NCBI RefSeq assembly: GCF_000375345.1
Contig: NZ_AQXD01000001.1
Location: 512,600-576,599, forward strand
Source: Wohlfahrtiimonas chitiniclastica DSM 18708
GTDB taxonomy: Bacteria > Pseudomonadota > Gammaproteobacteria > Cardiobacteriales > Wohlfahrtiimonadaceae
Direction of reading: 5' to 3'
DNA length: 64,000 nt
Below, piece by piece: positions 4,387 to 48,459 of the stretch; the first letter of the stretch is position 1; each line of letters opens with the position of its first letter. The translations under genes and the position numbers were made by a program. The notes under the pieces were generated by a model. It searched no databases, had not been told where the DNA came from, and was given only the letters and a program-made list of their open reading frames with translations.

Positions 4387-6321
4387 ATGACCCTTCAACG
4401 AGCGAAACTTTGCATTTTAGCCACCACGGATTTACATGCACATGTCACGAATTATGATTATTATCGTGATCAATCGCTCCTTGATGTCGGATTAATGGGA
4501 CTGGCAGATGTGATCGAGCAGATTCGCCGCACAGAGCCAAATACACTGTTATTAGACAATGGTGATTGCCTGCAGGGCAATCCCATTGGCAACTATCTGC
4601 GCGATGATGCCATGGTGCATCAGCATTCGATGATTACACTCATGAATGCGCTGAAATATGATGGCGCAACCCTTGGCAATCATGAGTTTGATTTTGGATT
4701 GCCGTATCTTCATAAGGCGATACAAGATTGGCGCCATCCGGTGACGAGTGCAAACATTGAAACGGCGGCAGGCAAACCATGGTTGCCACCTTATTTATTA
4801 TTACAGCGATCGATCACCATGGAAAAGGGTGCACCGAAACCAATCACCATTGGTGTCATCGGGGCAGTACCCCCTCAAGTGATGCTCTGGAATCATAAAG
4901 TTTTATCAGAAGATCCTCACGAGCGCTTAGTGGTGAAGGACATCACCGCATCGATTGCTCATTATGTCAAAGAGATGAAAACCAAAGGTGCGGATCTGAT
5001 TGTTGTGTTGTCCCATTCTGGCGTCAGTGATCGCCCTTATCAAATGGGGGCAGAGAACAGCGTCACTTATCTTGCAGAGATTGAAGGCGTTGATGCCATT
5101 GTGGCAGGGCATGCCCATGGCGTCATGGCAGAAAAGATGGGCAGTCGTGCGGTGCCTGTGGTCATGTCTGGTGCCTTTGGGCAATACTTAGGCTGTGTGA
5201 ATTTTACACTGACCCATGATGCGACAGGTTGGCACATTGAGCGTGCATGGCCTGAATTGATTGAAAATGGTGGGCAAGGGGATGCAACGCACCCATTATT
5301 TCCCTGTGTGGCGCGTGAACATGCATTGACCTTAGCGCGTATGAATGCCCCAATTGGACGCAATGTCACCGATTTTTCAAGTGCAATGAGTCTGGTGGAA
5401 GATGATGCCTGCATTGAGCTCATTGCCCAAGCGCAGTTGTGGTATGGGGCGCAATTATTAGCGTCATTGGGCGTAGAAAAGCGTCCAATTCTCAGTGCCG
5501 TGCCTGCATTTAAAGTGGGCGGACGTAAAAATGCCCCGCATGATTTTACCTGGATTGAGCCTGGCATTTTGAGCTTTAAGAATGTGGCGGATTTGTATCC
5601 CTTTAACAATCAATTGGCCATCCTTCGCATCAATGGGCGTGATCTACGCGAATGGCTTGAATGCGCAAACAGCATCTATTTTACCATTGATGAAGGACAA
5701 AGTGCCGCCCAACCACTGATCAATTGGGCGAAACATCGTGGATACAATCGCGATGTGATCAAAGGTGTTGAATACACTGTCGATGTGCAGCAGCCGCGCC
5801 GATATAATGGGGAGTGTCGTTTGGTTAATGAGGCAGCACGGCGCATTGTAGATTTAACCCATGAGGGGAAATGGGTTCGCGATGAGGATGAGTTTTTTCT
5901 CATCACCAATCAATATCGTGCATATGCAGGAAAATTCCCCGGCAGTGGGGAACATGCGGTGGTGACGTTATCCACCGATGAATTACCCACAATCATTGCA
6001 GAATATTTGATGCATCAAGTGGCCAATGAAGGCCACATTCGTGTGGTGCCCACTTTCAATTGGCAACTGGCATGTCGTGCAAAGGTGCGCTATGAAACGG
6101 CGCCCGATGAAAAAGCAGCGCAATACATTCAAACATACATGCCCACTTGGCAGCGCTGTCAAAGATTGGATGAAGATGGCTTTGCCATTTACATTTGCCC
6201 AAATATTGCGCAAAAAACCTCAATTTTAGATGTGAATCATTCGCAATCTTTACATTTCTCATATAGGACTAAATTTACTTATTTTAACAATGGTGGTGAT
6301 AATTTTTATCAATCTCATTGA
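4387..6321 (+). CDS. cpdB: CpdB-like 2',3'-cyclic-nucleotide phosphodiesterase/3'-nucleotidase
   Basis: A 644-residue two-domain metallophosphoesterase/5'-nucleotidase. Metallophosphatase motifs appear in order: TTDLHAHVTNYDYYRD (residues about 13-28), LLLDNGDCLQGNPIGNYL (about 54-71), TLGNHEFDFGLPYLH (about 95-110), LSHSG and VAGHAHGVMA (about 240). A 5'-nucleotidase C-terminal domain follows, with the aromatic substrate-binding region near YPFNNQLAILRINGRDLREW. Known relatives such as E. coli CpdB are periplasmic, yet this protein starts with MTLQRAKLCILATTDLHAH and has no signal peptide, so a cytoplasmic location is expected. The gene follows prfA by 10 bp, probably co-transcribed. Confidence 0.88.
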   Translation: MTLQRAKLCILATTDLHAHVTNYDYYRDQSLLDVGLMGLADVIEQIRRTEPNTLLLDNGDCLQGNPIGNYLRDDAMVHQHSMITLMNALKYDGATLGNHEFDFGLPYLHKAIQDWRHPVTSANIETAAGKPWLPPYLLLQRSITMEKGAPKPITIGVIGAVPPQVMLWNHKVLSEDPHERLVVKDITASIAHYVKEMKTKGADLIVVLSHSGVSDRPYQMGAENSVTYLAEIEGVDAIVAGHAHGVMAEKMGSRAVPVVMSGAFGQYLGCVNFTLTHDATGWHIERAWPELIENGGQGDATHPLFPCVAREHALTLARMNAPIGRNVTDFSSAMSLVEDDACIELIAQAQLWYGAQLLASLGVEKRPILSAVPAFKVGGRKNAPHDFTWIEPGILSFKNVADLYPFNNQLAILRINGRDLREWLECANSIYFTIDEGQSAAQPLINWAKHRGYNRDVIKGVEYTVDVQQPRRYNGECRLVNEAARRIVDLTHEGKWVRDEDEFFLITNQYRAYAGKFPGSGEHAVVTLSTDELPTIIAEYLMHQVANEGHIRVVPTFNWQLACRAKVRYETAPDEKAAQYIQTYMPTWQRCQRLDEDGFAIYICPNIAQKTSILDVNHSQSLHFSYRTKFTYFNNGGDNFYQSH

Positions 6322-6380
6322 TAAATAGTGAATTTTACCCATTGGATCTGTCAGTAAAACAGCTAAAATCATTTATTTTG

Positions 6381-6408
6381 TTGATATTTCCTAACAAAAA
6401 TATATAAT
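6381..6408 (+). promoter_or_regulatory. candidate sigma70 promoter for rpoS
   Basis: TTGATA (6381-6386) and TATAAT (6403-6408) are separated by 16 bp in the AT-rich 278-bp gap before rpoS. If used, transcription starts near 6415 and gives a leader of about 185 nt before the rpoS start, long enough for RNA folding or sRNA control. The leader holds AT-rich potential stems but I cannot fold it reliably by eye. Confidence 0.6.
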
Positions 6409-6599
6409 TGATGCCATTGGTAATGAAGACATAAAGATGGAACGTTTCATTATAATCTTTTTAAAAGATGATGATAAGGGTTTTTTATTTTATCAATCAT
6501 GCCATTGTCTATATGATTGTCGGCGTCAAATCATACAGACAAATTAATGAGTTACACAAACTGTTTTATTAAAGAAATATCAATCAATAAGGGTTGTCA

Positions 6600-21150: not shown

Positions 21151-21245
21151 TAGAAGTAAATGGAAGTAAGATTGGAGTATCTACTTCCAAATTTGTAAGG
21201 TTTTACTTCCAAAATGGCGAAAATTATACTTCCACTTACTTCCAA
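21151..21245. repeat. cluster of GGAAGTA/TACTTCC motifs, candidate integrase arm-type sites (left)
   Basis: AGAAGTAAA and GGAAGTAA lie back to back (21152-21169). Inverted ACTTCC copies follow at 21183, 21205, 21228 and 21238, the last two inside the first codons of the integrase gene. The same motif recurs as a pair beside attR (49301-49320). Short repeats on both sides of the core in this arrangement are what P2- and lambda-type integrases use as arm-type binding sites. The assignment is inferred. Confidence 0.6.
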
Positions 21246-22404
21246 ACAAGTTAAAGAAGCCCAGCCTAAGCCTAGAGCTTACAAGCTTTATGATGGTGGC
21301 GGGTTAATACTGACAATTTATCCAACAGGTAAGAAAGTTTGGCGGTTAGATTATTATGATCTCAATAAAAAACGTAAAACTTACACAATTGGTGATGCGC
21401 AGCACATCCCTTTAGCCGCTGCGAGAAAAAAACGCGATGAACTCAAAGGGAATCTGGAGAATCATCAAAGTATCTCTAAAAAAGATATCATGACATTTGG
21501 TCAGGTTTTTTATGAATGGTTTGATAAATGGAAATTGCTTGTTGTTGAATCAACTGCAAATCGGGCCTTATCATCTGTCCAAAAAGATTGTTTTCCTACA
21601 ATTGAAAATTTAGACATCACAAAAATTAGGCCTAAAGATATTGTTGCAGCATTAGCGCCAATCGATAAGCGTGGTGCTGGAGAAACATTAGAGAAAACAA
21701 AATCAGCACTTAAATTAACCTTTGATTATGCCATTGCACGAGGATTATGTGATATGAATCCTGTTACGTCAGTCACTGCATCGGCTTTTACCATACGTGA
21801 AAAACAGAATCATAGGGCGCTAGATCCATCAAAAATATATATGTTAAATGATTTTTTTGCATCTGATAGAAGTTCATTAATTGTTCGAAAATGCACCGAG
21901 TTTACATTAAGAACCATGTGCAGAATTAGCGAAGCTGTATATGCTACATGGGATGAAATTGACGGTGATGTTTGGACAATACCCGCTGAGAGAATGAAAA
22001 GCAGAAGGGCTCATATTGTTCATTTAACTGAACAATCATTGGAAATTCTCGAAGATATGAAGAAATTCAAATCATCTCAATATATTTTTCAAAATAATCA
22101 TTTAAGTACACATATTCATAAAGACACACCAAATACAGCAATTAATCGCTGTGGTATTGATAGTACAGTACATGGTTTTAGGGCATTGGCTTCCACAGTA
22201 TTAAATGGCACATGTTTATTTGATAGAGATGTGATTGAAATGTGTTTATCGCACAAAGATAGTGATGCTGTACGCGCTGCTTATAATCGCGCACAGTACT
22301 TAGAACACAGAAAAGAAGCTTTGATTTGGTGGAGTGACTTTATAGATATGTGTGATACAGAAAAAAATAATATGAAAGCCCTGAAAAAATTCAAGCTTAT
22401 ATAA
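21214..22404 (+). CDS. int: prophage tyrosine integrase (P4-type, DUF4102 N-terminus)
   Basis: A 396-residue site-specific recombinase. An N-terminal DUF4102 arm-binding domain (KLYDGGGLILTIYPTGKKVW; RKTYTIGDAQHIPLAAARKK) is followed by a core-binding helical domain. The catalytic domain shows Arg in RTMCRISEAVYATWDEID (about 238), H-x-x-R in VHGFRALAST (about 320-323), a second His in LSHKDSDAV (about 347) and the nucleophilic Tyr in RAAYNRAQYLEHR (about 357). It lies just inside attL, pointing inward. Candidate arm-type repeats overlap its start, so Int may autoregulate. Confidence 0.93.
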   Translation: MAKIILPLTSKQVKEAQPKPRAYKLYDGGGLILTIYPTGKKVWRLDYYDLNKKRKTYTIGDAQHIPLAAARKKRDELKGNLENHQSISKKDIMTFGQVFYEWFDKWKLLVVESTANRALSSVQKDCFPTIENLDITKIRPKDIVAALAPIDKRGAGETLEKTKSALKLTFDYAIARGLCDMNPVTSVTASAFTIREKQNHRALDPSKIYMLNDFFASDRSSLIVRKCTEFTLRTMCRISEAVYATWDEIDGDVWTIPAERMKSRRAHIVHLTEQSLEILEDMKKFKSSQYIFQNNHLSTHIHKDTPNTAINRCGIDSTVHGFRALASTVLNGTCLFDRDVIEMCLSHKDSDAVRAAYNRAQYLEHRKEALIWWSDFIDMCDTEKNNMKALKKFKLI

Positions 22405-39442: not shown

Positions 39443-39876
39443 TGAAAGTTCAAATGGTTTGGGGATTTTTCCCCTTTGCTTTGGAGTCATTGCCATATGA
39501 GCAGTTTACAAAGAAAACGGGCTATAAATATGCGAGTAATTCACGGGTGGGCACGCGTGATGCCCATCAATTTTTGGGTCCTGGTGATGAAATGGTGGTG
39601 TTGTCGGGCAAACTTTTACCCATGCTGACAGGCGGGCGCAATGTGTTGGAAATTTTGCGGTTACAGGCAAGCAGCGGGCAGGCATTTCCTTTGATTGAAA
39701 GAACGGGCAGAATTCATGGCAATTATATTTGTATGAATGCCGATGAAATTGCCCGTCAGTTTGAGCACACAGGCGCACCACATATTGTGGATTTTACCCT
39801 TGAGTTCAAACGGGAAGGGGATGATCTATTAGGTGCATTGGGTGTGCTGACAAGCCAGATTAGTGGGTTGATTTAA
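39442..39876 (+). CDS. tail protein U (P2 gpU-like)
   Basis: A 144-residue tail tip protein. MVWGFFPFALESLPYEQFTK and RIGRIHGNYICMN-type segments (ERTGRIHGNYICMNADEIAR) fit gpU. Its stop overlaps by 4 bp the end of a convergent accessory gene that separates it from gpD. Confidence 0.88.
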   Translation: MKVQMVWGFFPFALESLPYEQFTKKTGYKYASNSRVGTRDAHQFLGPGDEMVVLSGKLLPMLTGGRNVLEILRLQASSGQAFPLIERTGRIHGNYICMNADEIARQFEHTGAPHIVDFTLEFKREGDDLLGALGVLTSQISGLI

Positions 39877-40595
39877 TTCCCTAGTTTAACTTGTTCCCAT
39901 TCTGTTTTGAGTATTTCTTGAGTCATGATACTAATCATTTTCAGAGTGATTGTTTTTGTATGTATATAAAATTGCATTTGGTCAGTTGAGGATAATTGTG
40001 CAAAACTATCGCAATATAGAGGAAATGGTGCTGCGAATGGTGCACCCCAATATTCAGATATTTTTTGACAAAATTGATTGATATCCTCGATACTTAAAGG
40101 ATTAAAAATAAAGCAATTTACTTCCCCTAATAATCTAACTAATTCTAGTGATTTATCATTTTTTATAGTTTTTGCTTGTGGTGACAACAGCAGTGTTACA
40201 TAGGATGTTATGTACAATAATCTATTGTGATTTTCTTCTGTAACTAACTGAGGTGTAAATACTATATTGTTTTGGTGGTCATAATTATATGATTTCATGT
40301 TATATACAAGTTGCAAATATTCTGCCATATTTTTACGTAAATCATTGATCCATTCTTGTCTGTTTTTTGATAGTACTTCTATTTCTCTTTTTTTTCTTTC
40401 AGATATGACACTGTTATACCAAGCTAAAACAAGAGGAAATGAAACATACATTATGGTTAGTAGCACAGAATAATTGCCTAGTTCTGTATTCTTAAATATA
40501 GCTAATGTCACCGCTAAAACTATGAGAATTGAGGATACACCTAGTATAAATCCTAATAACCAAGACTCAGATAGTCTTTTATTATATTTATCCAT
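39873..40595 (-). CDS. two-TM accessory (moron) protein between U and D, unrecognised
   Basis: A 240-residue protein on the strand opposite to the late genes, inserted between the normally adjacent U and D and visibly richer in A+T. Two TM helices (about residues 12-34 and 43-60) are followed by a basic juxtamembrane helix (ERKKREIEVLSKNRQEWIND) and a helical cytosolic domain. The RQEWI-LR-AE(Y/F)-type helix is shared by many unclassified two-TM proteins. Position, orientation and composition mark it as cargo expressed in the lysogen; immunity or exclusion is a guess. Confidence 0.75.
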   Translation of the reverse strand: MDKYNKRLSESWLLGFILGVSSILIVLAVTLAIFKNTELGNYSVLLTIMYVSFPLVLAWYNSVISERKKREIEVLSKNRQEWINDLRKNMAEYLQLVYNMKSYNYDHQNNIVFTPQLVTEENHNRLLYITSYVTLLLSPQAKTIKNDKSLELVRLLGEVNCFIFNPLSIEDINQFCQKISEYWGAPFAAPFPLYCDSFAQLSSTDQMQFYIHTKTITLKMISIMTQEILKTEWEQVKLGN

Positions 40596-40682
40596 GATTT
40601 ATGTCCTTAAATAAACTAGAAGTTCATTATTTTAATAACAGAACTTTTTTAATATTGAAACTTTGTATTATAAGGAGCCACT

Positions 40683-41663
40683 ATGCTTTTTGATACCAAA
40701 ACACCACAATATGCCATCACTGTTGATGGCAAGAACATTACCAGCCGCATTAATTCACGCTTATTGTCCCTCAATTTGGTTGATAATCGTGGTTTTGATG
40801 CTGATACATTAACGCTTGTGATTGATGATAGTGATGGTTTCATGGCGTTGCCAAAGCGTGGCGTTAAGATCAATGTGAAGATTGGCTTTGGTGCATTGAT
40901 TGATCGCGGGGACTTTGTGGTGGATGCTGTTTCACATACAGGCGCACCTGATGTGATCACCATTTCCGCCAATTCTGCGGACTTTAGAAAGAAGCTTTTG
41001 GAGCAGAAGAACAAGGCATATCATCAAAAGACCATCAAAGAGATTGTGGAAGCGATTGCAGGAGAGCACAAATTAGAATTCCGAGTGGCTGATGAATTGG
41101 CCAACATTAAAGTGCAGGATCGTCAGCAGCGCAATGAGAGTGATGCCAACTTTTTAACGCGTTTGGCTGAAGAGTTTGATGCAGTAGCCACGGTGAAAAA
41201 GGGTACCATCCTATTTTTGAAACGCGGGGAAAGCAAGACAGCTAGCGGCCAAGAGTTGCCCACAATCATCATTACCCGTAATCAAGGGGATAATCACAGT
41301 TATTCTGTGAGTGATCGTGATGCTTATACGGGCATTAAAGCGAAATACACAACCACTAAGAATGGCGTGCGTAAAGAGGTTTTGGTGGGCGATGATGAGC
41401 GCACAAAGATGCTGCGCCGCATTTACAAAACGGAAGATGAGGCAAGGGCAGCGGCAGAAAATGAATTGAAGCGGGTACAACGTGCAGTTGCATCATTTTC
41501 GTTTACGCTGGCGATGGGTCGCCCTGAACTCATAGCAGAAAGCCCAGTGAAAGTACTGGGCTTTAAGGCGGAGATTGATTCACAAAATTGGATCGCTACT
41601 CGTGTGACTCATAACCTTGATCAGAGTGGTTTGACGACTCAGGTTGAGGCGGAGGTTAAATAA
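40683..41663 (+). CDS. late-control/tail protein D (P2 gpD-like)
   Basis: A 326-residue tail hub protein of the gp27-like family. RINSRLLSLNLVDNRGFDAD and the phage_GPD middle (IKVQDRQQRNESDANFLTRL) are clear. AAGGAG precedes the ATG. It is the last structural gene and is cut off from U by an opposite-strand insertion, so it may need its own promoter in 40596-40682. Confidence 0.92.
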   Translation: MLFDTKTPQYAITVDGKNITSRINSRLLSLNLVDNRGFDADTLTLVIDDSDGFMALPKRGVKINVKIGFGALIDRGDFVVDAVSHTGAPDVITISANSADFRKKLLEQKNKAYHQKTIKEIVEAIAGEHKLEFRVADELANIKVQDRQQRNESDANFLTRLAEEFDAVATVKKGTILFLKRGESKTASGQELPTIIITRNQGDNHSYSVSDRDAYTGIKAKYTTTKNGVRKEVLVGDDERTKMLRRIYKTEDEARAAAENELKRVQRAVASFSFTLAMGRPELIAESPVKVLGFKAEIDSQNWIATRVTHNLDQSGLTTQVEAEVK

Positions 41664-41683: not shown

Positions 41684-43093
41684 TTATTCTCGCTGCTGTG
41701 CAATATTAGCAGCTGTATCTATTATTTCCTTAACTGGATGTTTGAGAGGTTGCTGCTTATCTAAAGTTGTAGATGGATTAAAAGATACATTTTGGATTAA
41801 ATCACCCATTAAATTCTCAAGCATTTTTTTTTCTTGATCGCTCTCAATGCTTTCAATTTGTTGTTTAAAACTACTGTAGGAACTTGCTATAGATTCTTTA
41901 TGTGCATACTCTTGTTGCAATCTTACACATTCATTTAATTTTGAGGAAACAAAAATTGTTATCCAGACCAATAGGCCAAGTATAGGAAGCTGTAATAATA
42001 TTTTAGAAAAAACATAAAGTAAGGTTATGTTTTCTAAGTTTGCATATTTAATTACATTATAGCCACCAAAAACAGCTAATACACAAAATAATCCTATGAG
42101 CGCTCGATTATAAAAAGTGATTTTTTTATCGAAAGTCTCTTTAGCTGCTTTATAGGAACTTGCCAATCCTGCACTCATAGCTGCTGGCAATAAATCTTCA
42201 ATTTTTGTAGTGAATCCTTTATAAGTATTTTCATATTCTATGATCTTCTTATCAACTGCATCTTTTTGCTTTGCAAAAAAATTTTCTAGCTCTTTAGCTT
42301 GTTCCTTTGTTTTAGCTTGTATTGCATCAAGAGAATTGTTAGTTTCATCTAATTTTTCATCTAAAGCGTTAATTCTACTTTCAGCACCATCTTCAGCAAA
42401 TAACTTTTCCTCTAAATCATCAATTTTAGCTTCTGTGCCATTTTCACCAAATAAGTGATGCTCTAAAGTATTTATTCGTTCGACTATACCTGTTTCTGTT
42501 GCTGATAGCTTGTTATCTAATGCATTAATTCTAGTATCTACATCTGTTTCAGATGTAGATATTTTGTCCTCTATCGCTTTAACTCGTTCTGTCGTGTTTG
42601 ATTCTGCCGCCACTAATTTGTTATCTAATGCATTAATTCTAGCGCCTACATCTGTTTCTGATGTAGATATTTTGTCCTCTATTGCTTTAACTCGTTCTGT
42701 CGTGTCTGATTCTGCAGCCACTAATTTGTTATCTAATGTATTAATTCTAGCATCTACATCTGTTTCTGATGTAGATATTTTGTCCTCTATTGCTTTAACT
42801 CGTTCTGTCGTGTCTGATTCTGCCGCCACTAATTTGTTATCTAATGTATTAATTCTAGCATCTACATCTGTTTCTGATGTAGATATTTTATCCTCTATTG
42901 CTTTAACTCGTTCTGTCGTGTCTGATTCTGCAGCCACTAATTTGTTATCTAATGTATTAATTCTAGCATCTACATCTGTTTCTGATGTAGATATTTTGTC
43001 CTCTATCGCTTTAACTCGTTCTGTCGTGTCTGATTCTGCAGCCACTAATTTGTTATCTAATGCATTAATTCTAGCGCCTACATCTGTATTCAT
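41684..43093 (-). CDS. repeat coiled-coil membrane protein of the repressor-linked cassette, unrecognised
   Basis: A 469-residue protein. Residues 4-183 are five near-identical 36-residue repeats (DARINTLDNKLVAAESDTTE, then RVKAIEDKISTSET), a sixth degenerate copy follows, and more coiled coil runs to about 300. Two TM helices (about 330-348 and 362-384) and a basic/polar cytosolic tail follow. DLLPAAMSAGLASSYKAAKE precedes the membrane part. No enzyme motif is seen. It starts 9 bp after the upstream TM/BRCT-like gene and lies in the leftward repressor operon. A long cytoplasmic coiled-coil rod on a membrane hairpin suits sensing or assembly; function unknown. Confidence 0.8.
   Translation of the reverse strand: MNTDVGARINALDNKLVAAESDTTERVKAIEDKISTSETDVDARINTLDNKLVAAESDTTERVKAIEDKISTSETDVDARINTLDNKLVAAESDTTERVKAIEDKISTSETDVDARINTLDNKLVAAESDTTERVKAIEDKISTSETDVGARINALDNKLVAAESNTTERVKAIEDKISTSETDVDTRINALDNKLSATETGIVERINTLEHHLFGENGTEAKIDDLEEKLFAEDGAESRINALDEKLDETNNSLDAIQAKTKEQAKELENFFAKQKDAVDKKIIEYENTYKGFTTKIEDLLPAAMSAGLASSYKAAKETFDKKITFYNRALIGLFCVLAVFGGYNVIKYANLENITLLYVFSKILLQLPILGLLVWITIFVSSKLNECVRLQQEYAHKESIASSYSSFKQQIESIESDQEKKMLENLMGDLIQNVSFNPSTTLDKQQPLKHPVKEIIDTAANIAQQRE
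42545..43084. repeat. five 108-bp tandem repeats within the coiled-coil gene
   Basis: Five consecutive 108-bp units (boundaries about 43084, 42976, 42868, 42760, 42652, 42545) differ by only a few bases, many silent; a sixth unit to about 42437 is diverged. Each encodes one 36-residue coiled-coil block. Identity this high at DNA level implies recent expansion or gene conversion and predicts copy-number variation between strains. Confidence 0.9.
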
Positions 43094-43943: not shown

Positions 43944-44642
43944 TTAATCCCTTACACGCCGATTTCTAAACAATGTCACAGGCTCAACATGCACAACGCA
44001 CCCGATGATGTCAAAGTCATTCGGTGGGTTCTTCATATCAATCGTGAACGGTTTATAAAGTGGGTTAGTGCTAGAAATTTCAATGATTTTATTGGGTAGC
44101 TTTTGCACGCTTTTAACGATCAAGTCACCATCGATTCTGAGCACATAAATCCCATCATTAAAGAGTTTATTGGCGGTATCAATGAGCATGACATCCTTAT
44201 CATTGATGACGCCAATCATAGAGTCACCACGGGCAGTGATGGCAATTAAATCTTTGGGATTGACCTCTAAATATTTTTTAACCCAATACTTACGATATGC
44301 CAATGAGAACTCATAGGTTTCTTCATTAATGGCTGATCCATGACCTGCCGCCGCAAACACTTTATAACGAGGCACAAAACAGAATTCTTCCAAATCAACT
44401 AAATGACCAGCGTTGTCATAAATTTTGGGCTGTGAGCTATTAGATGGTATGCCCGTAATAATGTATTGGATATCACAGCCAATTTTTGTGATATTTGCAA
44501 AATATTCGGCATCAGGTTTACGCGTCCCTTTTTCATAATTCATTTGGGCATTGCCACCGACACCTGCAATTTCTCCAAATTCTTTTTGGGTCATTTTTAA
44601 GTTGTCCCTAACTTCTTTAAGTCTACGTCCGATTTCTATCAT
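43944..44642 (-). CDS. CI-like repressor (XRE HTH plus S24 peptidase)
   Basis: A 232-residue lysogeny repressor. The N-terminal helix-turn-helix is KMTQKEFGEIAGVGGNAQMN (about residues 17-36). The C-terminal LexA/CI-type self-cleavage domain has the catalytic Ser in ARGDSMIGVINDKDVMLI (about 139) and Lys in IDGDLIVKSVQK (about 177). A cleavable AAAGHGS linker lies near 98. Such a repressor should be inactivated after DNA damage, unlike the small P2 C protein. GAGGAAAC precedes the ATG. It leads a leftward operon with two membrane-protein genes. Confidence 0.92.
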   Translation of the reverse strand: MIEIGRRLKEVRDNLKMTQKEFGEIAGVGGNAQMNYEKGTRKPDAEYFANITKIGCDIQYIITGIPSNSSQPKIYDNAGHLVDLEEFCFVPRYKVFAAAGHGSAINEETYEFSLAYRKYWVKKYLEVNPKDLIAITARGDSMIGVINDKDVMLIDTANKLFNDGIYVLRIDGDLIVKSVQKLPNKIIEISSTNPLYKPFTIDMKNPPNDFDIIGCVVHVEPVTLFRNRRVRD

Positions 44643-45183: not shown

Positions 45184-45534
45184 ATGGCTTTAGTTAGTCA
45201 GGGCACTTTTTTACCCATTAAAAATGTATCTCAATGTTTAGAGGCAGCACACTTGGATTTTAAACGCGTAGCGAAAGCAGTGCGCGGTATAGCTTTAACA
45301 TCAATGTTTATCGACCATTCAAATGATGTACAGAAGTTGGCTCAACAAGCATCACAAATGACAAGTTCTGCATTGTTAAGTGTGCTTGAGTCTGTGCGTC
45401 ATCAATATTACTTAGCAGCGGATGAAGTGGCAGATCAAGCATTTACCATTCATTTGTTGAAGTCTGCCATCTCAATCCATGAATTGATGAAATCCATTAA
45501 GAAGGGCGCATCTCAGGGGGTGAATCATGACTAG
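45184..45534 (+). CDS. early-operon protein, unrecognised
   Basis: A 116-residue mainly helical soluble protein with no motif I recognise. AAGGAG precedes the ATG. It overlaps the thioredoxin-like gene by 8 bp, so the two are co-translated and may work together. Confidence 0.7.
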   Translation: MALVSQGTFLPIKNVSQCLEAAHLDFKRVAKAVRGIALTSMFIDHSNDVQKLAQQASQMTSSALLSVLESVRHQYYLAADEVADQAFTIHLLKSAISIHELMKSIKKGASQGVNHD

Positions 45535-45847
45535 TTATGTGATCAATATTACCAATGGTTTAACGCTCAAAAACATCACAGATAACGAGCCCACCATTAT
45601 TTTATTCACGCGTAGCCACTGCACATCTTCTAAGAAAATGCTGCACATGCTCGATGAGTTCAGTAAACGTCATTTGCACATTGCATGCGTCAATGTAGAC
45701 ATCAGCCCAAACAGCGTTGGGAAGAACCTGATGCACCGCTTCAATATCAAGGTTGCACCTTCTTTTGTTGTGTTCAAACAAGGCAAAGAGGTGAACCGCG
45801 GATGTGGTTACACACAGTTTGTGAATTATATGACGAGTGAAATGTAA
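45527..45847 (+). CDS. phage thioredoxin-like protein with CxxS site
   Basis: A 106-residue thioredoxin-fold protein without a signal peptide. The active-site loop is SHCTSSKKML (CTSS, a monothiol variant with the second Cys replaced by Ser; about residue 33). The cis-proline segment is VAPSFVVFKQGKE (about 80) and the final GCGYTQFVNYM helix region is present. A CxxS site is unlikely to reduce disulfides in the normal way. Location next to the replication gene recalls host thioredoxin as the T7 polymerase clamp, an analogy only. Confidence 0.78.
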   Translation: MTSYVINITNGLTLKNITDNEPTIILFTRSHCTSSKKMLHMLDEFSKRHLHIACVNVDISPNSVGKNLMHRFNIKVAPSFVVFKQGKEVNRGCGYTQFVNYMTSEM

Positions 45848-48459
45848 TGAAAATGGAACGCAGTCAGAGAGATGAAGTGGTGCGCCGCTTCATCGCAGAA
45901 ACAGGGGCAAAGCCTCAAGGCAATGGCAAACGCTATAAAAATGGTATTTGTCCAAGCTGTCAGAAAAAGAAATTATGGATATTTGGTGATGATCCGTGGA
46001 AGATCCAATGTGATAGTACCACGTGCGGTTATGAGATCTCCGCACGTGATCGTTATCCAGACATCTTTGAAAACTTTTCTAAACGCTATGCCCATGAAAT
46101 GGCAGAAGATGGCCGCGCAATTGCTAAAGCATACTTGAGGGAAGCAAGGGGCTTTAACACCACATTGTGTGACCAATTCACGCAAGAAACGTTTTTTGAT
46201 TATAGCACAAAAGTTTCCACACCAACGGTGCGTTTTCCAATGCCAGGGGATGGTTATTGGGAACGCCTGATTGAAAACTTGGAAAAGTTTGAGCAAAAAG
46301 CCCACTTCAAAAAAGGCTATTCATACAAAGGATTGGCTTGGCATTTTAATGATCTTGATGTGACCAAAATTAATGAATTATGGGTGGTCGAAGGGATCTT
46401 TGATGCGATTGCGTTAAGACATCATAACATTCATGCCATCAGTGCCATGAGTGCTAATAACTTTCCTGAACACACTTTAACGCAGATCTACCAAAAGAAT
46501 CCGCGCTTAAACATTGTGATTGCCTTAGATTCAGATGAGAAAGGCAAACAGTCTGCCATTAAATGGTTAAAGCTATGTGAAAAAATAGGATTCTTTTCTG
46601 ACATCCGTTTGGCCATTACCAATGATGGCGATGATTGGAACGATAAGCACATCAAAGAGCAATTAGATGATGAAGATATTGAAACCTATCTTCACCACGG
46701 CGCAGTGTTGTCCGCAAGATCACCGATGCGCAAAGCATATTTGATGTATCAGCGCTATGAAAAGCAGCAGTTTTTCCTTGAGTTCAATTTCAATACATAT
46801 TGGGTCAAAGTGGATGTGAAGGCGATGCTTGAAGCCATCAATAAAAACGATGAGGACGAGGAAACAGCCTTTAAGTCGTCTTGTACCATCACTGAGATTG
46901 CCAATTGCGTTACGAATATTTTGTACGCACAAAAAGAGTTAGATACCAATGAGTTATTCTACTTTCTTGAAGTGGTCATGAAAAATAAACGCAATAAAGA
47001 TGCCTTTTCACCGAAGCAATTGTCCAGCGCGGGCGAGTTCAAAGCGCGTGTGATGAATACGGTGTCAGGTGCGACATTTACAGGTGAAACAAAGCATTTA
47101 GATCAAATCTATCGTGTGAAAACGAGCGACATCAAAGACATTAACACGGTGCCATTTTTAGGGTATGCCAAAGAGTTGGGCGCGTATATTTTCCCTGAGT
47201 TTGCTGTTAAAAATGGTCGTGTCTATAAGCTCAATAAGGAAGAGTATTTTGAGTTGCCAGGGAACCAAAACATTAAGACAACTTTTTCAATGCCTGAGTT
47301 TGATCCAAGCATGGACTATCAAAATACATGGCACCAAGATTTCATTGATGTCTTTGGCCAAAAAGGATTGACGGTTTTAGCGTTTTGGCTTGGCTCATTA
47401 TTTGTAGAACAATTGCGTGATGTTTATAAAGGCTTTCCATTTTTGGAGCTCACAGGTGAAGCGGGTGCAGGTAAGTCCACCATTTTACAATTCATGTGGA
47501 AACTCTCTGGGCGTGGGGGAGACTATGAAGGGGTCAATCCCAATAACGGCTCTAAAGTGGGTTATTTCAGAACATTATCACAAGTGGCCAACTTGCCAAC
47601 GGTAATGATTGAGTGTGAAGGCTTTAACTTAGAGGATCTCAAGTCCTTATACAATGGCGGTTACTTGAGAACAACGGGCCAAAAGAATAATGGCAATAAC
47701 ACCAACAGCCCTAAATTCAGAGGTTCATTGATTTTATCCCAAAATGAGCGAGCCATTACCGCAGGTTCACGCGATAACTTAATTGCGTTGTTGTCCCGCC
47801 TTGTTTATGTGCATTTTGATACGAGCAATCACACATCTGAGTCACGCATTAAAGCCCGTCGATTAGAACAAATGTCAATGGATGAGTTGTCAGGCTTTTT
47901 GGTGGAAGCACTGAAAAATGAAGATGCCATTTTAAAGTGTGTTCATTCAGTTTTTGAACAAAACAGAGCACGCATTATGGCATTGGAAGAGGTGCAGACA
48001 ACGCGCATTGGCTTGACGCATGGCTTGATGCTCTCATTGTTGCAGGCTTTGAAGTTTTTAATGCCCATTCCTGAGCACACGATGCGTGCAACTGAAGAGT
48101 ACATTTGCCGCATTGCAATTGAACGCGATATTGAACTTAAACAAGATCATCCAATTTTAGAGCAGTTTTGGGAGGTTTATGAGTATCTCAATAATGAAGG
48201 TTTTGCGGTTAATCATTCCAGAAATGATGAGTATATCGCCATCAACTTAAATCAGTTTTATGGATTGGCCGCAGAGATGCGCCAGCAGCTAGATGACATT
48301 AAAACAGTCAAGAAGATGCTGCCACACACCAGCAGGCACAAATATATTGAGCATAATAAAGTTGTGAATTCTAAGTACAACGATGATGAGTACACAAACA
48401 GAGCAGGGAAGGGTTTTGGCTCATTGCGTTGTTATATTTTTCATAAAGGTAAGGGGTAA
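45847..48459 (+). CDS. Toprim primase-helicase replication protein (P4 alpha-like layout)
   Basis: An 870-residue protein. An N-terminal zinc finger (CPSC at 35, CDSTTCG at 56) is followed by a Toprim domain: ELWVVEGIFDAIALRHHN (about 178-195) with the acidic IALDSDEKGK (about 226). A long linker leads to an SF3/DUF927-type helicase: LTGEAGAGKSTILQFMWKLS (Walker A, about 535), VMIECEGFN-type Walker B and SLILSQNERA sensor. It probably primes and unwinds phage DNA. P2's rolling-circle gpA (with paired catalytic Tyr) is absent, so replication differs from P2. It overlaps the CxxS gene by 1 bp. Confidence 0.88.
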   Translation: MKMERSQRDEVVRRFIAETGAKPQGNGKRYKNGICPSCQKKKLWIFGDDPWKIQCDSTTCGYEISARDRYPDIFENFSKRYAHEMAEDGRAIAKAYLREARGFNTTLCDQFTQETFFDYSTKVSTPTVRFPMPGDGYWERLIENLEKFEQKAHFKKGYSYKGLAWHFNDLDVTKINELWVVEGIFDAIALRHHNIHAISAMSANNFPEHTLTQIYQKNPRLNIVIALDSDEKGKQSAIKWLKLCEKIGFFSDIRLAITNDGDDWNDKHIKEQLDDEDIETYLHHGAVLSARSPMRKAYLMYQRYEKQQFFLEFNFNTYWVKVDVKAMLEAINKNDEDEETAFKSSCTITEIANCVTNILYAQKELDTNELFYFLEVVMKNKRNKDAFSPKQLSSAGEFKARVMNTVSGATFTGETKHLDQIYRVKTSDIKDINTVPFLGYAKELGAYIFPEFAVKNGRVYKLNKEEYFELPGNQNIKTTFSMPEFDPSMDYQNTWHQDFIDVFGQKGLTVLAFWLGSLFVEQLRDVYKGFPFLELTGEAGAGKSTILQFMWKLSGRGGDYEGVNPNNGSKVGYFRTLSQVANLPTVMIECEGFNLEDLKSLYNGGYLRTTGQKNNGNNTNSPKFRGSLILSQNERAITAGSRDNLIALLSRLVYVHFDTSNHTSESRIKARRLEQMSMDELSGFLVEALKNEDAILKCVHSVFEQNRARIMALEEVQTTRIGLTHGLMLSLLQALKFLMPIPEHTMRATEEYICRIAIERDIELKQDHPILEQFWEVYEYLNNEGFAVNHSRNDEYIAINLNQFYGLAAEMRQQLDDIKTVKKMLPHTSRHKYIEHNKVVNSKYNDDEYTNRAGKGFGSLRCYIFHKGKG

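Follow-up and report, generated by a model that had tools for sequence, protein, structure and literature searches.

Could the nearly identical repeats at the start of gene P0001 set the length of a protein rod, and what would a protein with such a rod be doing in a prophage? The gene lies in a P2-like prophage within the window (the whole 64-kb stretch of DNA that was analysed; Table 1). The original prediction had read the repeats as recently amplified coiled-coil units, and their number as a possible means of tuning the length of the rod, as in surface-sensor or phase-variable proteins. We find that the array is real, recently homogenised and part of a prophage cargo gene, and that following the repeats leads to a conserved protein family that has no accepted match in Pfam, NCBIfam or PADLOC and constitutes a concrete candidate defence family.

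Table 1. Features of the P0001 locus and the surrounding prophage (window coordinates).
Feature	Position	Strand	Basis or remark
P2-like prophage, approximate extent, integrase to primase	21214–48459		PHROG matches of selected genes, gene order
Integrase	21214–22404
gpD, a conserved tail hub gene that borders the putative cargo site on the left	40683–41663	+	PF05954, sister prophages
Stretch swapped for other cargo in L090 and L092	41666–43109
P0001, 469 aa, N-terminal repeat rod and predicted C-terminal two-helix membrane hairpin	41684–43093	-	Open frame, homologues
Family motif RLQQEYAHKE, residues 391–400, directly past the hairpin	41894–41923	-	Alignment A5
Predicted membrane hairpin, residues ~324–387	41933–42124	-	Hydropathy, helices in the AlphaFold2 model
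Family motif LLPAAMSAGLASSY, residues 301–314, ahead of the hairpin	42152–42193	-	Alignments A3, A5
Two helix-turn motifs, residues 214–247	42353–42454	-	The 17-aa unit, ~10 copies in W. larvae
Sixth unit, 30–35% diverged	42446–42553	-	Unit comparison
Five near-identical 108-bp units together	42554–43093	-	Tandem Repeats Finder, unit comparison
Unit 5	42554–42661	-
Unit 4	42662–42769	-
Unit 3	42770–42877	-
Unit 2	42878–42985	-
Unit 1	42986–43093	-	Carries the start codon
7-bp inverted repeat at a unit junction	42646–42666
Perfect 9-bp inverted repeats at unit junctions	42752–42776, 42860–42884, 42968–42992
P0002, 279 aa, upstream of P0001	43103–43942	-
CI-type repressor, HTH and S24 peptidase, first of three same-strand genes	43944–44642	-	Pfam, PHROG
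Primase	45847–48459

The 108-bp repeat array and its history

Tandem Repeats Finder, run over the whole window with a score of at least 50 and periods of up to 500, returned a sole array, at 42510–43087, with a period of 108, 5.4 copies, 96% match and a score of 1051. The 540-bp stretch originally singled out is offset by 9 bp from units 1–5 as counted in the phase of the gene. These five units differ pairwise at 1–10 of their 108 bases, the first two codons of unit 1 alone accounting for five base differences, and units 2–4 are only 1–2 bases apart among themselves. The sixth unit differs from them at 32–38 of 108 bases; both the near-identity of the five and the divergence of the sixth were therefore correctly predicted. 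Such similarity cannot be produced by chance. At codons 6, 11 and 29, units 1 and 5 agree with each other against units 2–4, a mosaic of the kind expected from unequal recombination or conversion. With the first two codons excluded, the codon differences over all pairs of units 1–5 comprise 16 synonymous and 16 non-synonymous ones. The 9-bp inverted repeats at the unit junctions might help slippage; by eye, they are poorly conserved in W. larvae.

One unit of 108 bp corresponds to 36 codons, so that a change in copy number keeps the frame and alters only the length of the protein. Phase variation in the on/off sense is thus not what this array would bring about.

Furthermore, the homologous gene of W. 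larvae (L013), which also adjoins gpD and has the end of a P0002-like gene immediately upstream, carries 3.7 copies of the 108-bp unit together with 10.5 copies of a 51-bp unit, of which about two copies can be read in the window gene. The units are 0.9–9.3% apart within the window gene and 5.6–12% apart within the W. larvae gene, compared with 17.6–25% between the two. Since units are closer within than between the species, the expansion or homogenisation of each array postdates the separation of the two lineages, in agreement with the recent amplification or homogenisation originally proposed. The comparison of the two sequences indicates that the rod does change in length by unit number over species time, and the two species form a natural pair in which the rod of the same protein was amplified in two different ways.

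Could the copy number be an artefact of the draft genome, an assembly of 7 contigs and 1,991,020 bases? Units as similar as 2–4 could be collapsed or misplaced by short reads, and the only match to the repeat-unit pattern across IMG/VR is a record (L050/L089) that equals the window letter for letter over 12,654 bases. This record presumably comes from the same strain and hence offers no independent confirmation of the copy number. The proposed comparison of repeat number between related prophages was carried out, and the gene is absent from the other five of the six sister records. On the other hand, the units can be told apart by individual bases, and 3.7 copies of the homologous unit occur independently in the W. 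larvae gene. We therefore consider an assembly artefact rather unlikely.

Architecture of P0001 and the family of its C-terminal half

Each 36-residue block consists of two half-units of 18 residues. The predicted block length was thus right but the strict heptads were not, because over residues 1–216 the hydrophobic power lies at a period of 3.60, with none at the canonical heptad period of 3.50. An exact 18- or 36-residue repeat forces such periods, so the value of 3.60 only characterises the repeat and cannot count as an independent test, and it is compatible with local heptads within a single unit. If the repeats form one continuous coil, a period of 3.6 residues would give a nearly straight rod instead of the canonical left-handed heptad coil.

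Within residues 1–299, the top 19-residue Kyte-Doolittle mean is 0.65, so that hydropathy gives no export-like stretch at the N-terminus. By hydropathy, P0001 has two membrane-like segments only, at residues ~324–351 and ~356–387. With no hydrophobic stretch at the N-terminus and membrane-like segments confined to the C-terminal part, the repeat rod is predicted to be cytosolic. A surface-exposed, length- or phase-variable sensor, as originally suggested, would suit the recent in-frame amplification, but it is very unlikely in view of an N-terminus that does not look signal-like by hydropathy, a hairpin that is C-terminal only and a unit that stays in frame. Streptococcal M proteins are length-polymorphic coiled-coil repeat proteins at the cell surface; P0001 resembles them in that its rod length is altered by in-frame unit duplication, whereas its rod is predicted to lie in the cytosol. 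For the C-terminal 172 residues, AlphaFold2 predicts an entirely helical structure (mean pLDDT 79.5, pTM 0.60). Its model of the complete protein is of low quality (mean pLDDT 65.3, pTM 0.29), and only the all-helical secondary structure was taken from it.

The C-terminal half was found at 37 loci in genome contigs (L013–L049) and at 7 in viral contigs (L050–L056). With the window included and L045 left out for its broken frame, the family table has 44 rows, 42 of them distinct (L050 is a copy of the window, and L054 equals L033 letter for letter over 10,285 bases). Thirty-three of the 44 rows are 468–510 aa long, 9 are shorter, some of them cut by contig ends, and 2 are longer. According to the names in the record titles, the hosts are mostly Proteobacteria, with Campylobacterota, Verrucomicrobia and Bacteroidota also represented. 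These relatives make up an unnamed coiled-coil family of ~490 aa, marked by IESLLPGATSAGLASAY, a membrane hairpin and RLQQEYAHKEALAKSY, whose C-terminal half aligns throughout with the window protein. In the best segment, relatives from outside the genus, such as those of Colwellia sp. TT2012 (L014), Serratia microhaemolytica (L015) and Comamonas testosteroni (L037), are 28–46% identical to it.

In alignment A5, which holds 39 sequences, the residues L, A, G and L of the first motif are invariant (family consensus LLPGATSAGLASAY), as is RLQQEYAHKE, most of which also served as a search pattern. The window protein has both juxtamembrane motifs flanking the two-helix membrane hairpin, and a hairpin of this kind appears in the hydropathy of the W. 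larvae protein as well. By eye and by pattern, the central LFGxE...GI.xKI motif of the family resembles the 17-aa unit. An N-terminal domain of ~130 residues (MSRW...DPELVP...YIRPYMV) is present in 17 of 21 aligned proteins and absent from those of the window, W. larvae, L040 and L049. The window and W. larvae proteins carry DNA-level repeats where their relatives have this domain, and from the alignment we regard the Wohlfahrtiimonas protein as a family variant that lacks it. Two irregular relatives were also seen: that in L017 is split in two frames (5110–5637 and 5746–6567), and in L018, an Ignatzschineria MAG, the contig starts inside the family gene (1–426). Both might possibly be due to repeats.

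The protein is rare and patchily distributed. Within the class, matches occurred in 4 of 276 genomes (taken at completeness of at least 90), the own one counted, and two of the other three were weak, spanning ~40 residues. With the whole protein as the query, 7 of 57 related genomes gave matches, again with the own one counted and several of them weak.

The C-terminal domain had no match above the cut-offs in Pfam, NCBIfam or PADLOC. Weak matches below the cut-offs, to the NCBIfam Sip4 immunity protein (E 0.0039, with the L014 relative) and to phrog_9294 (E 0.016), do not decide the matter, and the stronger PADLOC and PHROG matches (LmuB, phrog_28427) fall mainly in the coiled coil. That to LmuB of Lamassu (E 5e-7) covers residues 15–322, which are mostly coiled coil, and Pfam finds no SMC/ABC-type ATPase head in P0001, which is thus not a Lamassu LmuB member. 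Similarly, the match to ZorA of Zorya (E 0.025, residues 30–212) lies in the coiled coil, Pfam matches no MotA/ExbB/TolQ domain, and P0001 is not a ZorA member. A fold search with the C-terminal model gave best E values of 1.1 (PDB) and 0.54 (viral), and the profile of the C-terminal domain matched no PDB sequence at E ≤ 1. The whole protein gave one weak match to PDB sequences (E 0.0093), in the coiled coil. Literature searches of titles and the starts of abstracts, by motif text (LLPGATSAG) or by topic, returned no description of the family, which is therefore undescribed as far as these searches show.

Do the repeats themselves matter to the function? Arrays at the DNA level occur in 2 of the 42 distinct family genes, both from Wohlfahrtiimonas and unlike in unit make-up. 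The idea that repeat number sets the length of the rod holds for the difference between these two species, but, with most rows at 468–510 aa, variation in length is no trait of the family. This restriction to a single genus suits a neutral rod: given an 18-residue helical period to start from, unequal recombination would change the number of units, which a straight coiled coil can accommodate, and homogenisation would be a by-product. The equal numbers of synonymous and non-synonymous differences between units are compatible with weak constraint, and the short inverted repeats at the junctions could promote slippage. Against neutrality, two unlike units were amplified in two species whose proteins are still 68% identical in the C-terminal part, which would at least be consistent with selection in favour of a longer spacer. 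We give the neutral explanation of the repeats an even chance, the same as an adaptive one, and it can hold together with a cargo role for the gene. The repeats as such look like a quirk of the lineage, and the notable part appears to be the family and the site in which the gene stands.

The prophage and its cargo site

The prophage encodes an integrase, a portal protein, baseplate and tail proteins, gpD, a CI repressor, a primase and a regulator that we take to be Ogr-like. On one strand, cI is followed after 1 bp by P0002, and P0002 after 9 bp by P0001. This third and last gene converges with gpD, the end of which is 20 bp away. The simplest reading of this arrangement is that P0001 belongs to the genes of lysogeny. 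A promoter scan yielded fewer promoter-like sites than shuffled sequences did, and decides nothing here.

An IMG/VR search with gpD returned six records in which gpD is 95–100% identical. The five sister records (L090–L094), which from their sequence probably represent other strains of the species, are 93.6–96.2% identical to the window in the left-hand block, which runs up to the end of gpD, and 93.8–98.3% identical in the block that starts from P0002 (L090, L092) or cI (L091, L093, L094). Between these blocks, the sisters showed no match of more than 150 bp to the window, except that L092 repeats the end of gpD over 156 bp. In L091, L093 and L094, the swapped stretch extends to the end of cI (~43944). 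The family domain was found in none of the five sisters and hence in only one of the six records, so that P0001 may be a recent passenger. Its place is taken by a PIN_8 protein in L092 and by a DUF4145 protein in L091 (in both cases the positions fit ORFs), which is only suggestive of defence. The cargo protein of L090 had been guessed, on reading, to be a DUF3800 protein, and Pfam did not confirm this.

Closely related prophages thus hold unlike cargo between conserved genes that they share, which is how a cargo hotspot is recognised, and on these alignments we take the site between cI (or P0002) and gpD to be one. In W. larvae (L013), Comamonas (L024) and one viral contig (L053), the family gene likewise has a gpD gene no more than ~3 kb away. 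Rousset et al. (2022, PMC9122126) describe defence hotspots in P2-like phages, one of them between cI and the integrase of a P2-related Vibrionaceae phage. Our site resembles those hotspots in that small cargo with high turnover sits between two conserved phage genes, and, like the Vibrionaceae hotspot, it lies on the cI side. It differs in being bordered by cI (or P0002) and by gpD, and in that the activity of its cargo is putative.

Could P0001 instead serve in the structure or assembly of the phage, as a tail accessory or similar, with a rod length tuned to the virion? The gene adjoins a tail gene, and the whole protein, used as a tblastn query, matched 75 phage records at E ≤ 0.01 (best rows ~27% identity), several of them annotated as tail fibre; a DNA search against phage records gave no match. 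The C-terminal piece alone, however, had no tblastn match among phage records, and the tail-fibre matches consequently reflect coiled-coil similarity. Furthermore, P0001 is on the cI strand, opposite the tail genes and 9 bp behind the preceding gene, it has a predicted membrane hairpin, its homologues adjoin type I restriction genes, and sister prophages with a 95–98% identical gpD are without it. A structural role is, in our judgement, highly improbable.

Several other observations were made in this prophage. Between a gpU-like gene and gpD, the minus strand carries a gene of 240 aa (39873–40595) whose N-terminus reads as membrane-like. The stretch around it (~39861–40649) is not shared by L091–L094 and is shared in part, to 40379, by L090; from this distribution, it looks like a second cargo site. 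In the sister CI repressors, the C-terminal S24 halves are almost identical, and the N-terminal HTH halves are of three kinds (window, L093 and L094; L090 and L091; L092), as expected of swapped immunity specificities. The end of P0002 resembles a BRCT domain on reading and has a match (E 2.9e-8) to a PHROG whose annotation is DNA ligase. P0002 is kept in L090 and L092 alongside other cargo and is missing from L091, L093 and L094. A small thioredoxin-like ORF (by reading) precedes the primase at 45527–45847 and is conserved in the five sisters.

Defence genes beside the relatives and a possible role

We also evaluated the genes beside the relatives, in a set of 94 ORFs from 40 loci that were hand-picked by nearness out of 237 listed (L013, L045, L050 and L054 being outside the set). 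Strong defence neighbours were found at no fewer than 8 of the 40 loci (L014, L015, L016, L025, L026, L027, L039 and L046), a count that is a lower bound drawn from single-protein results and one named member of the PADLOC tally. At the other 32 loci, there was no defence neighbour among the matches listed. A type I methylase adjoins the relatives in L015, L016, L026 and L046 (each with single-protein confirmation, and as a BLAST cluster), accompanied in L046 by a specificity subunit. The restriction subunit has single-protein confirmation in L015 and L016, and the candidate subunit of L026 is placed with these two by the BLAST cluster only, its PDB search giving no match. Elsewhere, PD-T7-3 lies upstream of the relative in L014, PDC-S11 lies downstream in L025, PDC-S20 is present in L026, an AbiLi/AriA-like protein is the neighbour in L039, and in L027 a CBASS phospholipase and cyclase are preceded by PDC-S57 and one unmatched ORF.

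Across the 94 ORFs, 247 PADLOC families were matched at E ≤ 1e-10. Among the best 25 of these 247, the leading type I methylase and specificity models had 5 matches each, and a type I restriction-subunit model had 3. Pfam likewise gave N6_Mtase 3, Methylase_S 5 and HSDR_N 3 times. Two sets of single-protein defence look-ups gave matches in 5 of 10 and 3 of 10 proteins; those of the first set that had none came from L043, L020, L014 (downstream), L024 and L036. As a control, we took the four ORFs closest to the midpoint of every one of 23 arbitrary 12-kb stretches, 92 in total, from genomes that were not matched to the test set. The control matched 44 PADLOC families, compared with 247 in the test set. 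Eight of these had two ORFs each (BrxHI twice, SngC, DpdF twice, PsyrT, Cas3 and PbeA), mostly helicase-like models by reading, and the single matches include AbiEii, mad3, mad8 and DpdJ. None of the type I restriction families reached two members among the best 25 of the 44, although one member is possible. These results indicate a clear association with type I restriction, that with other defence genes being no more than indicative. Of the 32 plasmid records with a distant match, three neighbourhoods were examined: in a Vibrio parahaemolyticus plasmid, the distant relative is two genes away from an Abi family protein, and in the Campylobacter jejuni and Acinetobacter baumannii plasmids no annotated gene was recognised as defence.

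On balance, and with modest confidence, we favour the reading of P0001 as an exclusion or abortive-infection protein, carried as cargo by a P2-like prophage and expressed in lysogeny, with a rod that was expanded in this lineage. In such a scheme, cI, P0002 and P0001 would be transcribed jointly during lysogeny, and P0001 would protect the lysogen against other phages by exclusion or abortive infection. The rod would sense or oligomerise in the cytosol, and the conserved hairpin and its two flanking motifs would act at the membrane. The Wohlfahrtiimonas protein lacks the usual N-terminal domain of the family and starts with the rod. In-frame duplications would have lengthened this rod, adding 36-aa units and, in W. 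larvae, 17-aa units as well, and the units would have been homogenised by unequal recombination or conversion. The significance of the family lies in its occurrence beside type I restriction, CBASS and Abi-like genes at these eight or more loci as well as in a cargo site with turnover. A more far-reaching idea, to which we give little credence, is that the cytosolic rod on its hairpin might be a molecular ruler or oligomerisation scaffold of a new anti-phage family, and that repeat duplication might remodel it in Wohlfahrtiimonas prophages, with the number of units tuning the exclusion exerted by the lysogen.

Finally, a homologous protein directly follows the relative at three loci (L024:6589–7425, L037:6619–7476 and L053:3830–4753). 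DUF6216 matches 3 of the 94 neighbour ORFs, and these are probably the ORFs behind the relatives in L024, L037 and L053.
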